Assembly: GCA_025929125.1 (NCBI GenBank)
Contig: JAICMT010000071.1
Coordinates: forward strand, 1 to 7,304
Reading direction: 5' to 3'
From: Acidobacteriaceae bacterium
GTDB lineage: Bacteria; Acidobacteriota; Terriglobia; Terriglobales; Acidobacteriaceae
DNA: 7,304 nucleotides
Every line of letters begins with the position of its first letter. Within the stretch, counting starts at the first letter, position 1. The notes beneath the pieces were generated by a model. The model saw only the letters and a program-made list of their open reading frames with translations, was not told the origin of the DNA and did not search any database. This document shows positions 1 through 7,304 of the stretch, piece by piece. The position numbers and the translations under genes were made by a program.

Positions 1-157
1 CAAAAAGATTTCCGGAGGGTTGAGTCACCAGCATTTCGGGCGTGATCGGAAGTTGACCTTCCGGGCCGCGCGCGTGGGTTTTGACCCCGTTGAGTACGGC
101 GGAACTGCTCTCCAGCACCTGGTCCAAGGGAATGGTTGTGTATGGGCGATTCGGCAT
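1..157 (-). CDS. YjhG/YagF-family aldonate (xylonate) dehydratase, N-terminal fragment cut by window edge
   Basis: Reading from an ATG at 157-155, an open frame of 52 codons continues off the left edge; it is too short and partial to stand out as a long ORF. Residues 24-52 contain GVKTHARGPEGQLPITPEML followed by VTQPSGNLF. This matches, from memory, the N-terminus of E. coli YjhG/YagF (VRTHADGPDGELPLTAEML, then a PSGDLF segment). These enzymes are Fe-S dehydratases of the IlvD/Edd superfamily that convert D-xylonate or related aldonates to 2-keto-3-deoxy acids in the cytoplasm. The catalytic and cluster-binding cysteines lie beyond the window and cannot be checked. The start lies 2 nt after the stop of the MFS transporter gene, so the two are almost certainly one operon. 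A GGAG lies about 14 nt upstream inside the transporter 3' end, a rather long spacing, so coupling may help initiation. Exact substrate is unknown. Confidence 0.85.
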   Translation of the reverse strand, partial: MPNRPYTTIPLDQVLESSSAVLNGVKTHARGPEGQLPITPEMLVTQPSGNLF

Positions 158-162
158 GCTTA
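155..162 (-). promoter_or_regulatory. Translational-coupling junction (TAAGCATG)
   Basis: On the minus strand the transporter stop TAA (162-160) is followed by GC and then the dehydratase ATG (157-155). A 2-nt gap of this kind allows terminating ribosomes to restart on the next gene. It supports co-expression of importer and dehydratase. Confidence 0.75.
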
Positions 163-1500
163 TTTCAGTATCTCCGCCGCGGCTTCCGCGTGTTGCCGTT
201 TGGGGGAATCATGGAGGAAGAATGAAAGTCCCGAGGCGCAGATCAACGACAGTGACATCAGCAGGTATCCGGCCTTTGCATTTCCAGTTACCGCCTGCAG
301 CCAGCCCACAAAGTAGCTGCCGACGAATCCTCCGACCGCCCCAAGGCTGTTGATGAACGCCATCACTTCGGCCGAGACGGTACGCGGCACCTTCTCAGGA
401 ATAAAGGCGAAGAAGGGACCATAGGGGGCGTACATGCACCCTCCGCCAATCACCACGCAGAGAAATGCCAGCGGAAAGCTGGACTGCGCGAACAGGAATG
501 AACCGAATAGTGCGAGCCCAGACACTAGCAACAAGGGCCAGATGAATCTCTGCCGATTCAAACTTCGATCTGACGCTCGGGATATCAGGATCATCAGCAG
601 GATCGCAGCCGCATAGGGACACGCGGTGAGCAGGCCCGTATTGGAGAGCGAAAGCGATCCACCCTGGCGCAGTATGACGGGCAGCCAAAGGACGAATCCG
701 TATAGCCCCAGGCTCCACAGGAAGTATTGGAACGCCAGAATCAACACTTCAGGACGAACCAAGGCAGTTCGCACCGCATCAATTTTGGGAAGAGAGACCT
801 GCTCCCGCTCAAGGCGGTGTTCCAACAGGCTGGCTGCCTCGGGCCTGAGCCATGTCGCATCCGCAGGCCTGTCGCGCACCAGAAACAGCCACGCGAACGC
901 CCACAGAACCGAAGGGATTCCTTCGACGATGAAAGTCTTCTGCCACCCCAGGAATTCGATCAGGAAGCCGGTGATAGCCGACATCCAGAGCACTGTGATG
1001 GGGTTCCCCAGAATCAGCAAGGTATTTGCGCGTGAGCGCTCCGCGTGACTGAACCAGCGCGTGAGCAGAAGAAGCATCGCGGGGAAGATGCAGCTCTCGG
1101 CCACGCCAAGCAGGAAACGATCCAGCGCCAGCATCCAGAAGCGGGTGAGGACGCCAGTGAGCGCGCCAAGTATGCCCCAAAACACGAGCGATACAAATAC
1201 GAGTCGTCGGGCGCCGTGTTTCTTCGCAAAGGATGCGCCGGGTATCTGGAAGACTAGATAACCGAGGAAGAAGAGTGCGCTCAGAAGAGAATTCTGCTCG
1301 CCGGTAATGTGCAGCGTTTTAGCCATACCGGCTGCCGCGCCGAAGCCATAGTTCGCACGATCGAGATACGCCAGGCTGTAGGTGACGAACACGGCTGGCA
1401 GAAGATACAGCCATCGCCTGTGCAGGCTTTTCGTCACGGCCGCCCCGTCGCCATCAAGGCCGATCGGGCTGCTGTTCTGGTCCTCTGTGGTTAGCTTCAT
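160..1500 (-). CDS. MFS transporter, anion:cation symporter (ACS) type, probable sugar-acid importer
   Basis: This 446-aa protein has the length and roughly 12 hydrophobic spans of a major facilitator. It is an inner-membrane permease, likely importing an organic or sugar acid with protons. TM1 (about residues 31-46) is followed by YLDRANYGF (45-53), the D-R-x-N signature of the ACS family. Next come a helix with FFLGYLVFQIPG (77-88), a motif-A-like loop GASFAKKHGARR (88-99), and RFLLGVAESCIFPAMLLLLTRWF (128-150, shown in part: RFLLGVAES, then IFPAM). The central loop lies about residues 209-250, and the second half has the loop SRASDRSLNRQ (307-317). ATG at 1500 is preferred because 30 residues before TM1 suffice. 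No Shine-Dalgarno sequence precedes it, however, and an in-frame TTG at 1527 has GAGAG 9 nt upstream and would add 9 residues. The downstream aldonate dehydratase, 2 nt away, suggests an aldonate substrate. Family call is firm; substrate is inferred from context only. Confidence 0.9.
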   Translation of the reverse strand: MKLTTEDQNSSPIGLDGDGAAVTKSLHRRWLYLLPAVFVTYSLAYLDRANYGFGAAAGMAKTLHITGEQNSLLSALFFLGYLVFQIPGASFAKKHGARRLVFVSLVFWGILGALTGVLTRFWMLALDRFLLGVAESCIFPAMLLLLTRWFSHAERSRANTLLILGNPITVLWMSAITGFLIEFLGWQKTFIVEGIPSVLWAFAWLFLVRDRPADATWLRPEAASLLEHRLEREQVSLPKIDAVRTALVRPEVLILAFQYFLWSLGLYGFVLWLPVILRQGGSLSLSNTGLLTACPYAAAILLMILISRASDRSLNRQRFIWPLLLVSGLALFGSFLFAQSSFPLAFLCVVIGGGCMYAPYGPFFAFIPEKVPRTVSAEVMAFINSLGAVGGFVGSYFVGWLQAVTGNAKAGYLLMSLSLICASGLSFFLHDSPKRQHAEAAAEILK

Positions 1501-1618
1501 AGGAAAATCAGGTTTCTGGCGGACCAAGGGAATCCGCTCTCAAGACATAGTCGTTTCTATCCTGTTCGCGGATGCTTGCGCAAGCTGGCGGGCTGCGGTA
1601 CGACCTTCTCTCTAGGCT
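1501..1618 (-). promoter_or_regulatory. Intergenic region with a perfect palindrome, likely control region of the sugar-acid genes
   Basis: This gap separates the Wzi-family stop from the transporter start. It holds the perfect 12-bp palindrome GCTTGCGCAAGC at 1574-1585, about 74 nt upstream of the transporter ATG, a position suited to an operator. I see no hairpin plus T-run that would terminate wzi transcription, and no strong -35/-10 pair. TTGCGC inside the palindrome with a weak ATAGAA 17 nt on is the best, but poor, promoter match. Function as an operator is inference. Confidence 0.35.
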
Positions 1619-3523
1619 TCACTTCGCCGTTGAGTTGAGTTTCGGAAATACTGTGAGTTGGAAGTTGAATGTGTTGTTGCCCTGCGAGCCTGATTTGTAA
1701 ATAGGGGCCTTCCAGCTCTCATGCTGGTACCACGTGTTCAGCTCGATCCCGGGACGCAGGCGCTTGGTCAACTCAATACGGAACTGAGTCTGGGTCGTTC
1801 CACCTGCAATGAAATCCTTGGCCGTTTTCTTGTGGAGATACTCTAGCTGCACCCACTCGTTGCTGCTGAGATGATAGGTTAGCCATGCCTGGCCGCCCTT
1901 CCCCTCGCGCCCGATCCAATCCCCTAGAATGTTGCCCTTGTTTGTGTAGGCCTGCTTTTGAATGGTTTCGGTGTACTCATTGTTGCCGTTCACACAGGCC
2001 AGCGTGACGCAATCCGTGTTGGCTGCCTCTACGCGCAGGTCGAGCCGGCTGGATCCCGGAAAACGCGAAAGATAGATGCCGGGCCGGTAGCCGGCGCGGC
2101 GCGGAGCGGAGATAGGAGTCACATCGTCGTGGGTTTCGGAGTCGGTGTAGAGGGTGAGAGCCCTGCGTGCGAACGGAAGGCGATAGGAGAAACTAAAATC
2201 CGAATACCTGGCGCCGGGATCGTTACGCGAGAACTTAAGGTCCGGGGTAGTGTCGCTGAAACTAAAAAATCCCTTAAGGAAGGTATGCAGAGTGACCGGC
2301 TCGTGCCCTGCGCCACCGAAGACGATGGTGCGCTGGAATGCGAACTGGAAGTCGCGTGTGGGAGCGAAGGAAAACATCTCGGAGTGGATCCAGGGATGGT
2401 TCGGGTCCGTATGGCCCTTCAGGCTGCCATAGAAGAAGTCGTATCGAAGTGGCCCGAGGAACCGGGACACCAGCGGAATCGAGAGCGGCTCCACTCGATT
2501 GATGCGAAAGGAATAGATGTTCTCCGCGTTGTTCGACCACGCCATGGCGCTGCCCATGCCCGGACCGAGCCACGCATCGGACTTGCCTCCGGAGATCTCG
2601 TGCCCGGCGACAAAGTAGGATAGCGTTCCCTCCACGATGCGAAACGGATTTTGCGCGGTGCTGGACGGCATGGGAACTGTCGGATCGGGATAATTGGGAG
2701 GCGCGTAGGGAATGATGAGCAGTTGCCGCTCTAACTGCGAGCCGAGGTTCAGCGGATATCCCGTTGCGGAAGGCGCATGCTGATACTCTCCGCGCACAAA
2801 CAGCGAGAAGCGCCCTCGCTCCGCCAGGCCGGAGAGCCCGGTGTAGTTGTTGAAACCGGGCTCATGCGGACGGCCATAGTCATTGAAATAGGTCTGGCCC
2901 AGGTGGAAACTATCCTGCAGAATTGATCCGCTGACTCCCATTACACGGGTGTAGGCCGAGTAGACTCCGTAAACTGTGCCGCGCCGAGCCCCCGTGAGAC
3001 CCTGCTTGGAAATACCTTCATCGCTCAGCTCATTCAGCAGGCCGGCAAGTAAAGATTGCGCCTCCTCGTCGGTGCCGGAAAGGATTTCATCCTCGGACCG
3101 CTGCAGGATATGTAGAGCACTTTGCCGCGTGTAAGGCCGCATGGCGAGGAACATCGAATCCAGATACCCCATGGAGTAGAGCCGCATCATGGCCGGATAG
3201 ATCCAGCTATCCAGCGGGATGTAAGCACTTCCAAGCGCCTCCTCGCGCATCCTGCTGCGGGTGGGAGCCGTGCCCAGGTAAGGAGGCATCGCGGTGAACG
3301 GATGTTCCGGGGAGGGTGATGCAGGCGTAACCTCAGGCGGCGGAGCCTTGTCGGGAACCGGCATGGATTCGGTTGTCCCCGGCTGCTGCTGGTAAGGGGG
3401 GGCAGCAGAGTCCTGCGTCGCTGGGCTCTGACCATGCCCCTGCGCGAGCGCAGGTCCGAGAATGCCGGCGAGCAGCACAAGAAGCAGGGAGTGCTTTCCT
3501 GAGGAAAGTTGGGGCATCGACAT
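1619..3523 (-). CDS. Capsule assembly Wzi family outer-membrane protein
   Basis: This 634-aa protein starts with a signal peptide: Lys10, a hydrophobic core at 13-26 and an ALA-Q junction near residue 27. A proline/glutamine/serine-rich linker follows (about 30-90), then a helical segment with YIPLDSWIYPAMMRLYSMGY (101-120) and MRPYTRQSALHIL (128-140). The rest to about residue 626 is made of alternating aromatic/polar strands separated by loops, consistent with a large beta-barrel ending FNFQLTVFP (619-627). Conserved-looking blocks include GDWIGREGKGGQAW (534-547). The Wzi family (Pfam Caps_assemb_Wzi) includes E. coli Wzi, about 480 aa, which anchors capsular polysaccharide at the cell surface; this protein is longer, mainly through the linker and loops. 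Cys505 and Cys510 could form a loop disulfide. The frame stays open upstream to 3865, but ATG 3523 (or ATG 3517) is chosen because it directly precedes the signal peptide and does not overlap the previous gene. The start has no clear Shine-Dalgarno sequence. Assignment is family-level; a role in capsule or another exopolysaccharide is not shown. Confidence 0.82.
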   Translation of the reverse strand: MSMPQLSSGKHSLLLVLLAGILGPALAQGHGQSPATQDSAAPPYQQQPGTTESMPVPDKAPPPEVTPASPSPEHPFTAMPPYLGTAPTRSRMREEALGSAYIPLDSWIYPAMMRLYSMGYLDSMFLAMRPYTRQSALHILQRSEDEILSGTDEEAQSLLAGLLNELSDEGISKQGLTGARRGTVYGVYSAYTRVMGVSGSILQDSFHLGQTYFNDYGRPHEPGFNNYTGLSGLAERGRFSLFVRGEYQHAPSATGYPLNLGSQLERQLLIIPYAPPNYPDPTVPMPSSTAQNPFRIVEGTLSYFVAGHEISGGKSDAWLGPGMGSAMAWSNNAENIYSFRINRVEPLSIPLVSRFLGPLRYDFFYGSLKGHTDPNHPWIHSEMFSFAPTRDFQFAFQRTIVFGGAGHEPVTLHTFLKGFFSFSDTTPDLKFSRNDPGARYSDFSFSYRLPFARRALTLYTDSETHDDVTPISAPRRAGYRPGIYLSRFPGSSRLDLRVEAANTDCVTLACVNGNNEYTETIQKQAYTNKGNILGDWIGREGKGGQAWLTYHLSSNEWVQLEYLHKKTAKDFIAGGTTQTQFRIELTKRLRPGIELNTWYQHESWKAPIYKSGSQGNNTFNFQLTVFPKLNSTAK

Positions 3524-3614
3524 GTCCAGTGTAATGGGACGCTGCTGGTAAGCGCCTTCTGCGGTCGAACCGAACCTGGCGATGAGCTCGGGATCACGGA
3601 TTAAACGTGGAGCA
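3524..3614 (-). other. Intergenic gap without recognisable signals
   Basis: This stretch lies between the stop of the E1-alpha-like gene and the Wzi-family ATG. I find no stem-loop with a T-run and no good -35/-10 pair. A TACACT just upstream of the ATG resembles a -10 box but has no matching -35. The Wzi gene may therefore be read through from the aceE transcript, or use a promoter I cannot recognise. Confidence 0.4.
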
Positions 3615-4493
3615 CTACACCTGAGAAGTTGCGGATGCGAGCCGGAAACCGATTCTTCTGGCGAATGACTTCGCCTCTGCCTCCATCCATCGCTTTTCCG
3701 CGACATTGCGGTGCAGCATGTACTCGGCAAGAACCTGGATCGCATCGGCGGATTGCTGCTTCTGGCCCTCAACGGCGTAACGGACGCACTCGATGAGTGC
3801 GCCGCCACCGCCAATGCGAGCGTGTCCAATCGCTTCCTGTGCGACGCGATAGATCGCAACTGCATCGTCCTGATCGACAGGTATGCCCGGAACCCTGGAC
3901 CGAAGCGCGATGGCAGACATTCGGCCCGTCCGTGAGGTTTGAGATCCGCGTTCCGGCAGGAGCACGAAGACTAGAGGCAGCTTCTGCACAGATACCCGCT
4001 CGAGGACCCGCAACCAGGAGGACGGCTGTGCGTCCGAGGGCTGCGCATAGCAGACGAGGACTGCGCTGTCTTTCGCGTCGGAGCTAAGTGAGCTTGCCTT
4101 CAGCGCTGCAGATGCTCCTGCGGCCATCCAGAGCCGCTCCGGATCGCTTGCCGACGCAATCAGCCGGGTCGCCGCACCGCATTCGGCGAGCGTGCTCAAG
4201 GAGCGAACATGCCGTCCAAGGGTGAGCACCTGCTCGGCAGACCGGCCGCGCAGGAAATCGATTGCACCCCCCTCCAGGGTGTCGCAAACTAGGTCCTCGG
4301 CTTGGAGATTGATAGCTGGGGCAACGAGGCAGGCTTCCATCCCGACCGGCGTAGCTGTGCGTCTGGGCTGCGAGCCGACGCGCCCCGCGAGCATGCGCAG
4401 GCGCAGCATGGCCACATACATCTGCCGCAGGCGGGCGTGGGGCATCAGCGGATTCTCGTAGGCGGAGGATTCGGCCGCTCTGCTTGCGGTCAC
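3615..4493 (-). CDS. Degenerate 2-oxoacid dehydrogenase E1-alpha-like protein (probable pseudoenzyme)
   Basis: This 292-aa cytoplasmic protein (no signal peptide or membrane span) aligns by eye along its length with the E1 alpha subunit of heterodimeric pyruvate/acetoin/branched-chain dehydrogenases. Residues 22-38 (LRQMYVAMLRLRMLAGR) match the first helix, GMEACLVAPAINLQAEDLV (51-69) the G-Q-E-A-x-x-x-G-x-A-L-x-x-x-D region, and VLVCYAQPSDAQ (145-156) with KLPLVFVLLPERGSQ (171-185) the thiamine diphosphate fold. GIPVDQDDAVAIYRVAQEAI (203-222) and ALIECVRYAVEG (232-243) match the block after it, and 250-281 the C-terminal helices. Key residues are gone: the G-D-G of the cofactor motif reads A-Q-P-S-D near 150-154, the paired Asn reads P-E near 180-181, and the H-x-H-G-type loop and the G-H-S phosphorylation-type loop are lost or shortened. 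Thiamine diphosphate and Mg binding is thus unlikely. Usual family length is about 320-400 aa. The GTG start overlaps the aceE stop (GTGA), with AAGGA about 12 nt upstream; ATG at 4445 is a weaker alternative. Homology is inferred by eye; function is unknown, possibly structural or regulatory for AceE. Confidence 0.78.
   Translation of the reverse strand: MTASRAAESSAYENPLMPHARLRQMYVAMLRLRMLAGRVGSQPRRTATPVGMEACLVAPAINLQAEDLVCDTLEGGAIDFLRGRSAEQVLTLGRHVRSLSTLAECGAATRLIASASDPERLWMAAGASAALKASSLSSDAKDSAVLVCYAQPSDAQPSSWLRVLERVSVQKLPLVFVLLPERGSQTSRTGRMSAIALRSRVPGIPVDQDDAVAIYRVAQEAIGHARIGGGGALIECVRYAVEGQKQQSADAIQVLAEYMLHRNVAEKRWMEAEAKSFARRIGFRLASATSQV
4490..4493 (-). promoter_or_regulatory. GTGA stop/start overlap coupling aceE to the E1-alpha-like gene
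   Basis: On the minus strand GTGA carries the GTG start of the E1-alpha-like gene (4493-4491) and the TGA stop of aceE (4492-4490). Four-base overlaps of this type usually mean translational coupling and roughly matched synthesis of both proteins. This supports physical or functional partnership. Confidence 0.85.
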
Positions 4494-7183
4494 GTGCGCG
4501 CGGGGTCCTTTGCTTCGGGATTCAGACCCAGCTCAGCGATGGCATCCTGCGCCTTCTTTGGCTTGATCTTTCCGTCACGCGCCAGCCGCGACAGTGCTGC
4601 GGCCACGATCGACTCCGCATCCACCTCGAAATGACGTCGCAGATACTTTCGGGTGTCGCTTCGACCAAAACCATCCGTTCCCAGAGTGATCAGGCGGCAT
4701 CGGCCGTTCTCCTGGAGCCAAGGGGCAAGCACATCTGGCAGCGATTTCATGTAATCGCTCGCGGCGATGACTGGGCCTTTGGCGTCACTGAGCGCAGTTA
4801 GAATGTATGGCTTCTTCTCCGGCTCGGCGGGATGCAGACGATTCCAGCGTTCTACTGCAATGGCATCGCGGCGGAGCTCAGTGTAGCTGGTCACGCTCCA
4901 GACATCGGCGGCGATACTGTAATTGGTGGCCAGCATCTCCTGCGCTCGCAGAACCTCGTTCAGGATCGGTCCGGAGCCGAAGAGCTGCACCGTCGCGTCT
5001 CCCTTCTGCGCCGCGCGATAACGATAAATCCCCCGCAGGATGCCTTCCTGCACGCCCTCGGGCATTTCGGGCATGGGGTAATCCTCGTTGTACATAGTGA
5101 TGTAGTAGAAGTGATCCTCGCTCTGCTCGTACATGCGCCGCAGTCCGTCCTGGATCACAACCGAGAGCTCGTACACAAACGCGGGATCGTAGGTGATACA
5201 GGTGGGCACCGTACTGGCGAGCAGATGGCTGTGCCCGTCCTGGTGCTGAAGCCCCTCGCCGAGCATAGTGGTCCGACCGGCGGTGCCGCCCATCAGAAAT
5301 CCTTTGCAGCGCGCATCGGCAGCCGCCCAGATCATGTCACCGACCCGCTGGAATCCAAACATCGAGTAGTACATGTAGAAGGGAACGGTCGGGACCCGCA
5401 GGGTTGAGAAGGCCTGGCCGGCGGCGGTGAAGGACGCCATTGCTCCAGCTTCGGTGATTCCTTCTTCGAGAATCTGGCCGTCCTGCTCCTCGCGGTAGTA
5501 AAGCAGCATGTCTTTGTCGTGGGGAGTGTAGCGCTGGCCCTCCGGCGCGTAGATGCCGACCTGCCTGATAGCCGATTCCAGCCCGAAGGTGCGACCCTCG
5601 TCCGGAACAATAGGCACCACCAGCTTCCCAATCGCCGGCTCCTTCAATAGACCCCGCAAGATGGAAACGAAGCCCATCGTGGTAGAAACCCCGCGTCCTC
5701 CGGAGCCGGAGGTCCACTCCCGGAAGAACTCCAGCGGCGGAGCTTTGAATTTCGATTCTGGCACGGTGCGCTGCGGGAGATAACCGCCCAGCTCGCGCCG
5801 CCGCGCCTGCATGTACTGCATCTCGGGCGAGTCCTGCGGCGGACGATAGAACGCCGCTTCCTTCGCCTGCTCCTCCGGTATAGGAATGTCAAACAGTTTG
5901 ACAAACGCTGCGAGCGCATCGTCGGTCAGTTTCTTTTCGGAGTGCGTCGCATTCCGAGCCTGCGCGGAGCCCAGGCCGAAGCCCTTCACCGTCATGGCCA
6001 GCACTACCGACGGACCGCCTCGATGCTCAAAGGCGCGCTTATATGCGTTGTACACCTTGATCGGATCGTGACCCCCGCGGCGCAGGTGGATCAACTGATC
6101 GTCTGTGTAATCCTTTACCAACTCCAGCAACTCAGGGTATTTGCCGAAGAAGTTCTTGCGCAGGAACGCACCGTCCTTCGCTTTATAGGTCTGGAAATCG
6201 CCGTCGACGCACTCTTCCATACGACGAAGCAGCAGCCCGCTGTGATCCCGGGCAAACAGCTCATCCCAGTCCGAGCCCCAGATGACCTTAATGACATTCC
6301 AGCCCGCGCCCCGGAACACACCTTCCAACTCATCGATGATGCGCTTGTTGCCGCGTACCGGCCCATCCAGCCGCTGCAGATTGCAGTTGACGACGAAGAT
6401 CAGGTTGTCGAGCCGCTCGCGGGCTCCCAGCGAAATCGCACCTAAGGTGTCGACTTCGTCGGTTTCGCCGTCGCCCAAGAAGGCCCAGACTTTTCGGTCG
6501 GTCTTTTTGAGCAGGCCGCGGTGCTCCAGGTAACGCATGAAGCGAGCCTGATAAATCGAATTCAGCGGTCCGATGCCCATCGACACCGTCGGGAAGTTCC
6601 AGAAGTCGGGCATCAGCCAGGGGTGCGGATAGCTGGAAAGACCAGGCGTATCGCGAAGATCGTGGCGGAAGTTGCCCAGGCGATCCTCGTTGAAACGGCC
6701 CAGCAGGAATGAACGCGCATAGATACCTGGCGACGCATGGCCCTGGTGGTAGATAAGGTCGCCCGGCTGCTCGCTTCCGTCCTCGGCAATGCACCGCGCC
6801 CGGAAGAAATGGTTGTAACCGACCTCCTGCAGAGTAGCGAGCGAGGAGTAAGTAGAGATGTGTCCGCCGATCCCTGCGTCCTTCTTATTCTGGCGATGCA
6901 CCATTGCCATTGCGTTCCAGCGGATGAGGGCCTCAATGCGACGCTCCATCTTGCGGTCGCCTGGGTAGGGAACCTCTTCATATTTGGGAATCGTGTTCTG
7001 GAATGGGCTCACCAGGCCGGAAGGGACGGCAACACCCGCCTCACGCCCACGCTGGCGCAAAGCCTTCAGCAGTTCGGCGGCGTTCTCCCACTCAGCGGCA
7101 ACGACCTCGTCAAACGCCTCAATCCACTCGGCCAGCTCAGCCGAGAAGTCTACTTTTGGTTCTGCTTCTGTCTTTGTGGTCAT
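4490..7183 (-). CDS. aceE: Pyruvate dehydrogenase E1 component, homodimeric type
   Basis: This 897-aa cytoplasmic enzyme decarboxylates pyruvate with thiamine diphosphate and Mg and transfers the acetyl group to the lipoyl domain of E2 in the pyruvate dehydrogenase complex, feeding acetyl-CoA to the TCA cycle. E. coli AceE is 887 aa, and similarity is visible throughout. Residues 105-112 (GIGGHIST) and 147-152 (QGHASP) hold active-site-type histidines. GDGETDE (237-243) with NCN (266-268) is the thiamine diphosphate motif. Other conserved blocks are KDGAFLRKNFFGKYPE (336-351), a His at 414 in the loop equivalent to the E. coli catalytic His loop, PIVPDEGRTFG (524-534), EEGITEAGA with the cofactor Glu near 574, YYSMFGFQRVGD (605-616), GEGLQHQDGHSH (642-653) and GTDGFGRSD (835-843). 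ATG 7183 gives an N-terminus matching E. coli in length. The frame stays open to a TTG at 7282, but that would overlap the candidate promoter. No strong Shine-Dalgarno sequence precedes ATG 7183; the nearest purine-rich stretch, AAAAGAG, is about 20 nt away. No E2 or E3 gene follows it here. Confidence 0.97.
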   Translation of the reverse strand: MTTKTEAEPKVDFSAELAEWIEAFDEVVAAEWENAAELLKALRQRGREAGVAVPSGLVSPFQNTIPKYEEVPYPGDRKMERRIEALIRWNAMAMVHRQNKKDAGIGGHISTYSSLATLQEVGYNHFFRARCIAEDGSEQPGDLIYHQGHASPGIYARSFLLGRFNEDRLGNFRHDLRDTPGLSSYPHPWLMPDFWNFPTVSMGIGPLNSIYQARFMRYLEHRGLLKKTDRKVWAFLGDGETDEVDTLGAISLGARERLDNLIFVVNCNLQRLDGPVRGNKRIIDELEGVFRGAGWNVIKVIWGSDWDELFARDHSGLLLRRMEECVDGDFQTYKAKDGAFLRKNFFGKYPELLELVKDYTDDQLIHLRRGGHDPIKVYNAYKRAFEHRGGPSVVLAMTVKGFGLGSAQARNATHSEKKLTDDALAAFVKLFDIPIPEEQAKEAAFYRPPQDSPEMQYMQARRRELGGYLPQRTVPESKFKAPPLEFFREWTSGSGGRGVSTTMGFVSILRGLLKEPAIGKLVVPIVPDEGRTFGLESAIRQVGIYAPEGQRYTPHDKDMLLYYREEQDGQILEEGITEAGAMASFTAAGQAFSTLRVPTVPFYMYYSMFGFQRVGDMIWAAADARCKGFLMGGTAGRTTMLGEGLQHQDGHSHLLASTVPTCITYDPAFVYELSVVIQDGLRRMYEQSEDHFYYITMYNEDYPMPEMPEGVQEGILRGIYRYRAAQKGDATVQLFGSGPILNEVLRAQEMLATNYSIAADVWSVTSYTELRRDAIAVERWNRLHPAEPEKKPYILTALSDAKGPVIAASDYMKSLPDVLAPWLQENGRCRLITLGTDGFGRSDTRKYLRRHFEVDAESIVAAALSRLARDGKIKPKKAQDAIAELGLNPEAKDPART

Positions 7184-7260
7184 AGCGCTGGTCCCGGGGG
7201 GTCTCTTTTCGCGGAGTGTATGGAAACGAACGCAGAGTGCGCTCAAATACTCCTTCTCTA
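7184..7260 (-). other. aceE 5' leader
   Basis: This stretch contains AAGGAG (7255-7250), an ideal Shine-Dalgarno core, only 3 nt before an in-frame TTG (7246-7244). That is too close for normal initiation, and it lies about 66 nt from the preferred ATG. Just before the ATG lies a C/G run, CCCCCCGGG. I see no riboswitch-like structure or recognisable operator. Confidence 0.35.
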
Positions 7261-7289
7261 ACCATAATTCGCCGCGGGACAAACGTCAC
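7261..7289 (-). promoter_or_regulatory. Candidate sigma70-type promoter for aceE
   Basis: On the minus strand GTGACG (7289-7284) resembles TTGACA at 4 of 6 positions. It is followed by a 17-nt spacer and TATGGT (7266-7261), 4 of 6 against TATAAT. Transcription would start near 7254, leaving a leader of about 70 nt before ATG 7183. The match is only moderate and is based on the general bacterial consensus. Confidence 0.4.
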
Positions 7290-7304
7290 GTTCGCGAGGC
7301 TCGC

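Follow-up and report, generated by a model that had tools for sequence, protein, structure and literature searches.

In the heterodimeric E1 component of pyruvate dehydrogenase, the active site forms between the alpha and beta subunits, with E1-beta bringing the other half of it, and the replacement of an enzyme is usually thought to end in the loss of its old parts. Here we describe a pseudo-E1-alpha (PSE) encoded next to aceE, the gene for the homodimeric pyruvate dehydrogenase E1, in an Acidobacteriaceae bacterium (GenBank assembly GCA_025929125.1, contig JAICMT010000071.1, positions 1 to 7,304; the window below means this whole stretch of 7,304 nucleotides). The closest described protein is PdhA (PF00676, TIGR03181), which shares with PSE the fold, the locus and the core residues V206, D207, D210, Y215 and R226; unlike PdhA, PSE has no GDG..NN motif, no active-site loop and no E1-beta, is shorter, and scores below the TIGR03181 cut-off. 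Our preferred interpretation, held with slightly less than even confidence, takes PSE for the pdhA left orphaned when a two-part pyruvate dehydrogenase was lost: it has shed the cofactor motifs and the active-site loop, has kept its reading frame, and would act as a non-catalytic accessory subunit docking on AceE in the window's lineage.

Pseudo-subunits as a kind are already known. TKTL1, a eukaryotic transketolase-like relative of thiamine enzymes, has lost part of the cofactor site; it belongs to a different family from PSE and is the duplicate of a living enzyme. The duplicated pyruvate dehydrogenase genes of crucian carp and goldfish are reportedly those of E1 subunits. These duplicates have a new role in an ethanol pathway (PMC5554223). 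They resemble PSE as E1 subunit copies with a changed role; they gained decarboxylase activity, whereas the cofactor motifs of PSE are gone. In the eukaryotic pyruvate dehydrogenase complex, E3BP is described as a catalytically inactive paralogue of E2 (PMC9974300; PMC10156792), and is thus, like PSE, an inactive relative of a complex component. E3BP differs from PSE in that it is related to E2 and its docking role is known, whereas PSE is a bacterial E1-alpha for which a role is only proposed. Furthermore, unlike for E3BP, no functional parent was found in 63 of the 69 genomes with PSE. The retention of an orphaned E1-alpha through enzyme replacement appears to be undescribed, and no description of an inactive E1-alpha beside AceE was found in the open-licence literature.

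The preliminary description of this DNA had taken PSE for an E1-alpha relative with a dead thiamine site, and our analysis supports both points. PSE exceeds the cut-off of PF00676 (30 bits against 22, residues 191–242), fails that of the equivalog TIGR03181 (46 bits against 411), and is predicted to have the E1-alpha fold. For comparison, 150 genomes of the window's family were searched and only chosen matches were fetched as loci. The Mg/thiamine diphosphate motif GDG/GEG..NN (searched as G[DE]G, 20–35 residues and NN) is present in 24/24 true E1-alpha rows and in 0/90 PSE rows, and the pattern of the active-site loop is distributed in the same way (24/24 and 0/90); an intact cofactor motif was thus sought in close relatives and not found. 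Likewise, none of the 120 dead-clade proteins listed (336 were found) keeps the motif; a looser pattern (G[DE]G ... N) matches seven of these 120. Many of these relatives bear the name "TPP-dependent pyruvate/acetoin dehydrogenase alpha subunit," an annotation that should be read with caution. The PSE rows were chosen as open frames and give no tally of intact versus broken genes; three sequences among them are present twice, once from each of two collections (L020/L034, L023/L040, and L025/L091). The alpha-like rows omitted are L086 and L120 (another paralogue by tree position) and a second short open reading frame (ORF) in L020 and L034; L121 yielded no alpha.

The best-conserved stretch of the dead family begins at V206. 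Conservation in 89 PSE rows reaches 0.99 for V206 and D207, 1.00 for D210, R216, and E220, 0.97 for A213 and 0.94 for V217, and lies within 0.94–1.00 for R226; R216 and V217 are more conserved in PSE than in true E1-alphas (0.71 and 0.58 there). The conserved residues from V206 to R226 form the leading candidate for a contact surface that has been kept. What remains of E1-alpha in PSE would be a folded alpha, as the fold prediction suggests, with one invariant charged patch. By its residues, PSE is a pseudoenzyme: those essential for catalysis are gone and the predicted fold is retained. Because it has neither a beta partner nor the cofactor residues, PSE should not catalyze the E1 reaction.

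True E1-alphas carrying the cofactor motif were found in 24 genomes, 14 of which have no aceE. E1-beta follows directly in 23 of them, and the remaining one (L053) was counted as true although its contig ends ahead of E1-beta. By contrast with these pairs, none of the 89 PSE loci fetched has an E1-beta gene beside PSE. The origin of PSE is suggested by its surroundings: the E1-alpha/beta pair follows argJ in six loci (L026, L027, L028, L032, L048, and L051), and the PSE loci are of the types argJ PSE Wzi, argJ PSE aceE Wzi, and argJ aceE PSE Wzi, the last being that of the window. argJ lies upstream in 51/89 PSE loci, and argJ or Wzi is present in 66/89, many loci being truncated by contig ends. 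On the simplest account, the pdhA of the argJ locus remained as PSE after the loss of E1-beta, rather than PSE having arisen as a partner for AceE. A tree of 117 rows, obtained by a quick search without bootstrap, splits the 24 true rows from the 89 PSE rows with values of 85 and 81 in the Shimodaira–Hasegawa-like approximate likelihood ratio test. Six genomes (G015, G078, G088, G097, G104, and G129) hold both PSE and a true pair, the latter on another contig; therefore, it cannot simply be the present pair that left PSE behind in these genomes.

A second and recent case was revealed within one genus (g62), represented by G062, G114, and G138. The pair is present and aceE absent in G138; G114 carries both; G062 has aceE, a motif-damaged alpha (L031) and a scar of beta, and no pair. 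The DNA of G062 aligns with that of G114 across E1-alpha (1050 bp, 78%) and, further on, over 489 bp of the following gene (77%); between the two only the E1-beta scar is left, right after alpha (L031:4989-5131; 82 bp at 85%, E 8e-22, plus a short C-terminal match). The alpha frame of L031 is open for 360 codons, and its motif changes include GEGS to DEGP and HGGYAP to RRRHAP. This protein is only partly dead: it keeps NN, SHRDF and the greater part of the loop, it alone among the PSE rows retains the length of the loop, with GHS changed to GHA, and it is the one dead protein that branches among the true E1-alphas in the tree. Arithmetic from pairwise values gives its branch a nonsynonymous rate (dN) of ~0.095, a synonymous rate (dS) of ~0.42 and a ratio of ~0.23. 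From the three genomes we infer the order in which aceE arrived, beta went, and alpha stayed, and the simplest reading is that a loss of E1-beta leaving alpha occurred at least twice. Since the steps of replacement stand side by side in this genus, it can be asked there why a catalytic subunit is kept once it no longer catalyzes.

A single E2 (PF00198) domain match was found in 25 of the 28 family genomes examined, and several kinds of E1 are present in the family (AceE, SucA, and a fused E1-alpha-beta); taken together, this means that different E1s may share one core. Among the E2 loci L142–L149, L146 and L147 have the E2 gene behind genes resembling, by eye, lpd and lipB. The window's own genome encodes a fused E1-alpha-beta of ~780 aa (G000:C80:8065-10125, L001), which looks like a separate, branched-chain-type enzyme.

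For PSE as an orphaned accessory subunit, we propose the following scenario. AceE would have replaced the older heterodimeric enzyme, E1-beta would have been deleted after this takeover, and E1-alpha would have kept a structural or regulatory contact. The surface around D207, D210, R216, E220, and R226 may bind a partner; in the window's lineage this partner would be AceE, coupled translation could hold the PSE:AceE ratio, and PSE might modulate the assembly of AceE on the shared E2 core, or AceE activity. Given that genus g9 has PSE and no aceE, the original contact was probably with the E2/E1 assembly in general and not with AceE alone. Because different E1s may share one E2 core, PSE is proposed as an accessory subunit of that assembly, later specialized for AceE in the window's lineage. 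The broader proposition is that the alpha half of a swapped-out pyruvate dehydrogenase, stripped of its active site and of beta, has been kept across much of the family as a regulatory or assembly subunit and, in one branch, became translationally coupled to the AceE that replaced it, with such retention occurring at least twice; we consider it possible and hold it with greater reserve. If PSE does regulate AceE or a shared E2 core, a pseudoenzyme subunit would stand at the gateway of the citric acid cycle, a case of which no description was found in the open-licence literature.

PSE was identified in 69 of the 150 family genomes (a lower bound, given how loci were fetched) and a true pair in 24; 87 have either and 63 neither. 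The adjacency to aceE that had been put forward at the outset stood within the window's genus and did not hold as a rule across the family. In the genus, aceE lies directly upstream of PSE in 56 of 60 genomes, the exceptions being two with the genes on different contigs, one 73%-complete genome without an aceE match and one with a longer gap; the GTGA overlap of stop and start recurs in the relatives L005, L006, L007, L008, and L010. In the family sample, the two genes are adjacent in 18/69 PSE genomes, with aceE just upstream in 10 and just downstream in 8 (L008, whose long ORF starts inside aceE, was tallied once as downstream and is actually upstream). On the tree, adjacency needs five changes and three states need six, so aceE joined or left PSE several times, and on both sides. 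PSE was identified in 46/58 genomes whose best aceE scores 1250–1335 bits and in 10/44 with at least 1366 bits. PSE thus seems to go with one kind of AceE, a pattern that shared ancestry alone could produce.

Several observations weigh against the docking of an orphaned pdhA on AceE. As to origin, 18/24 true E1-alpha loci show no argJ within the fetched stretch, and the tree places PSE beside all true E1-alphas, not nested with those of the argJ locus, so that the orthology of PSE and pdhA rests mainly on the shared locus. As to partnership, aceE was not seen adjacent in 42 of the 60 PSE genomes that hold it, and 9/69 PSE genomes have no aceE. It is also absent from 12/12 checked genomes of g9, two of them single-contig and all selected because the profile matched them; there, dead PSE adjoins argJ or Wzi in every case. 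The nine family genomes with PSE and no aceE include G002, G081, G122, G020, and G102. Conversely, 56/116 aceE genomes have no identified PSE (weak matches uninspected), which means that AceE does not need PSE. The covariation of rates between PSE and AceE (partial rho 0.29, p 0.037; 0.23 for PSE–Wzi and 0.14 for PSE–ArgJ) shows no excess over the control pairs AceE–ArgJ (0.29) and Wzi–ArgJ (0.49). Finally, the PSE tree has a length of 20.1 against 3.4 for AceE at the same 28 loci, and such fast evolution is not what one expects of a conserved enzyme's obligate subunit. A general PSE–AceE partnership is not borne out by these genome counts. A role of PSE as partner of AceE only is ruled out by the PSE genomes without aceE, together with the aceE genomes without identified PSE.

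The same distribution favors the strongest rival explanation, namely that PSE is an orphaned E1-alpha with a conserved role apart from AceE (on the E2 core, with SucA or the fused E1-alpha-beta, or outside these complexes) and that the adjacency of aceE is incidental. The single E2 match agrees with it, as does Acidipila rosea (L020, the same as L034), where sucA adjoins PSE convergently and aceE lies elsewhere. However, the GTGA overlap, the near-constant adjacency in the window's genus and the presence of aceE on either side of PSE in different clades argue against mere coincidence, and we regard this explanation as possible, though short of probable. Pyruvate:ferredoxin oxidoreductase is not a general replacement of AceE in the PSE genomes without it, being above cut-off in only four of nine (G083, G124, G144, and G102; not G002, G008, G020, G081, and G122).

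That PSE is a functionless relic drifting to loss is improbable. The ratio dN/dS is below 1 in all 24 finite alpha pairs, at 0.02–0.07 for the four true E1-alpha controls and 0.07–0.68 for the others. PSE values are mostly 0.07–0.39, with three pairs at 0.48–0.68, two of them probably inflated; L007/L010 (0.68), L009/L010 (0.50), and L084/L099 (0.36) are probably too high because the longest ORF took in upstream out-of-frame sequence, and window/L005 and other pairs were saturated. In g9, without aceE, the PSE pairs give 0.19–0.52 (12 finite among 14 listed of 66). These ratios indicate that PSE is maintained by purifying selection, in agreement with the initial view of a frame maintained rather than decaying. 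A relic would better explain why dN/dS in PSE exceeds the AceE value of the same pairs by a factor of ~1.7 to 5.6 (AceE, 0.02–0.18), why the matched part falls to 199 aa in some lineages, and why G005 and G044 (98% complete) have no match whatever. It would also account for the stop inside the matched span in 8/60 congener matches. However, PSE is matched in all 60 genomes searched of the window's genus, the fold is predicted to be retained even in a 218-aa member, and in the two of the eight that were fetched, G130 (L046) and G235 (L162), the frame stays open for 279 and 242 codons, so that the profile may just overrun the gene end; among the family-sample matches listed, only that of G046 has an internal stop.

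It is still less likely that PSE remains an enzyme, whether by using a different cofactor or by handling thiamine diphosphate differently, in which it might work with the beta portion of the fused E1. The predicted fold and the invariant charged patch would suit such an enzyme, and the loss of the tested cofactor and active-site motifs and of E1-beta at the locus speaks against it. An origin unrelated to E1-alpha, suggested by the low similarity to solved E1-alphas (phmmer E ~0.01), is refuted by the PF00676 match above cut-off and the predicted fold, and we give it practically no credence.

The features of the locus are collected in Table 1. As initially described, the window contains a complete homodimeric aceE overlapping PSE, and its product scores 1292 bits, above cut-off, against TIGR00759. 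The ATG of aceE was chosen because alignments to relatives begin near that codon.

Table 1. Positions of PSE, its sequence elements and its neighbors in the window.
Feature	Position	Strand	Basis
PSE (pseudo-E1-alpha), 292 aa, GTG start	3615..4493	-	
PSE codons 150-154, AQPSD, site of the lost Mg/thiamine motif (GDG or GEG)	4032..4046	-	
PSE codons 180-181, PE, replacing NN of true E1-alpha	3951..3956	-	
PSE codons 206-220, VDQDDAVAIYRVAQE, best-conserved stretch of the dead family	3834..3878	-	
PSE codons 239-250, site of the missing E1-alpha active-site (phosphorylation) loop	3744..3779	-	
aceE, complete, for homodimeric pyruvate dehydrogenase E1; 897 aa if begun at the probable ATG, with the ORF open as far as 7282	4490..7183	-	
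GTGA, shared by the aceE stop and the PSE start	4490..4493	-	sequence
AAAGGA, Shine-Dalgarno-like, 12 nt before the PSE GTG	4506..4511	-	sequence
Wzi-type protein, start not determined	1619..3532	-	PF14052 E 2e-111; conserved neighbor by synteny

On the minus strand the order in the window is aceE, PSE, the Wzi-type gene and a gene for a major facilitator superfamily (MFS) transporter. The Wzi-type gene is a conserved neighbor in the locus and has no part in the proposed function. A second copy of aceE away from PSE was seen in L045 (G130; 62% identical to the window's AceE) and at G175:C1:1814698-1817328. The assemblies of L016 and L021 are labelled Rhodanobacteraceae, yet their locus falls inside the acidobacterial clade, for which mislabelled bins are a more likely explanation than transfer.
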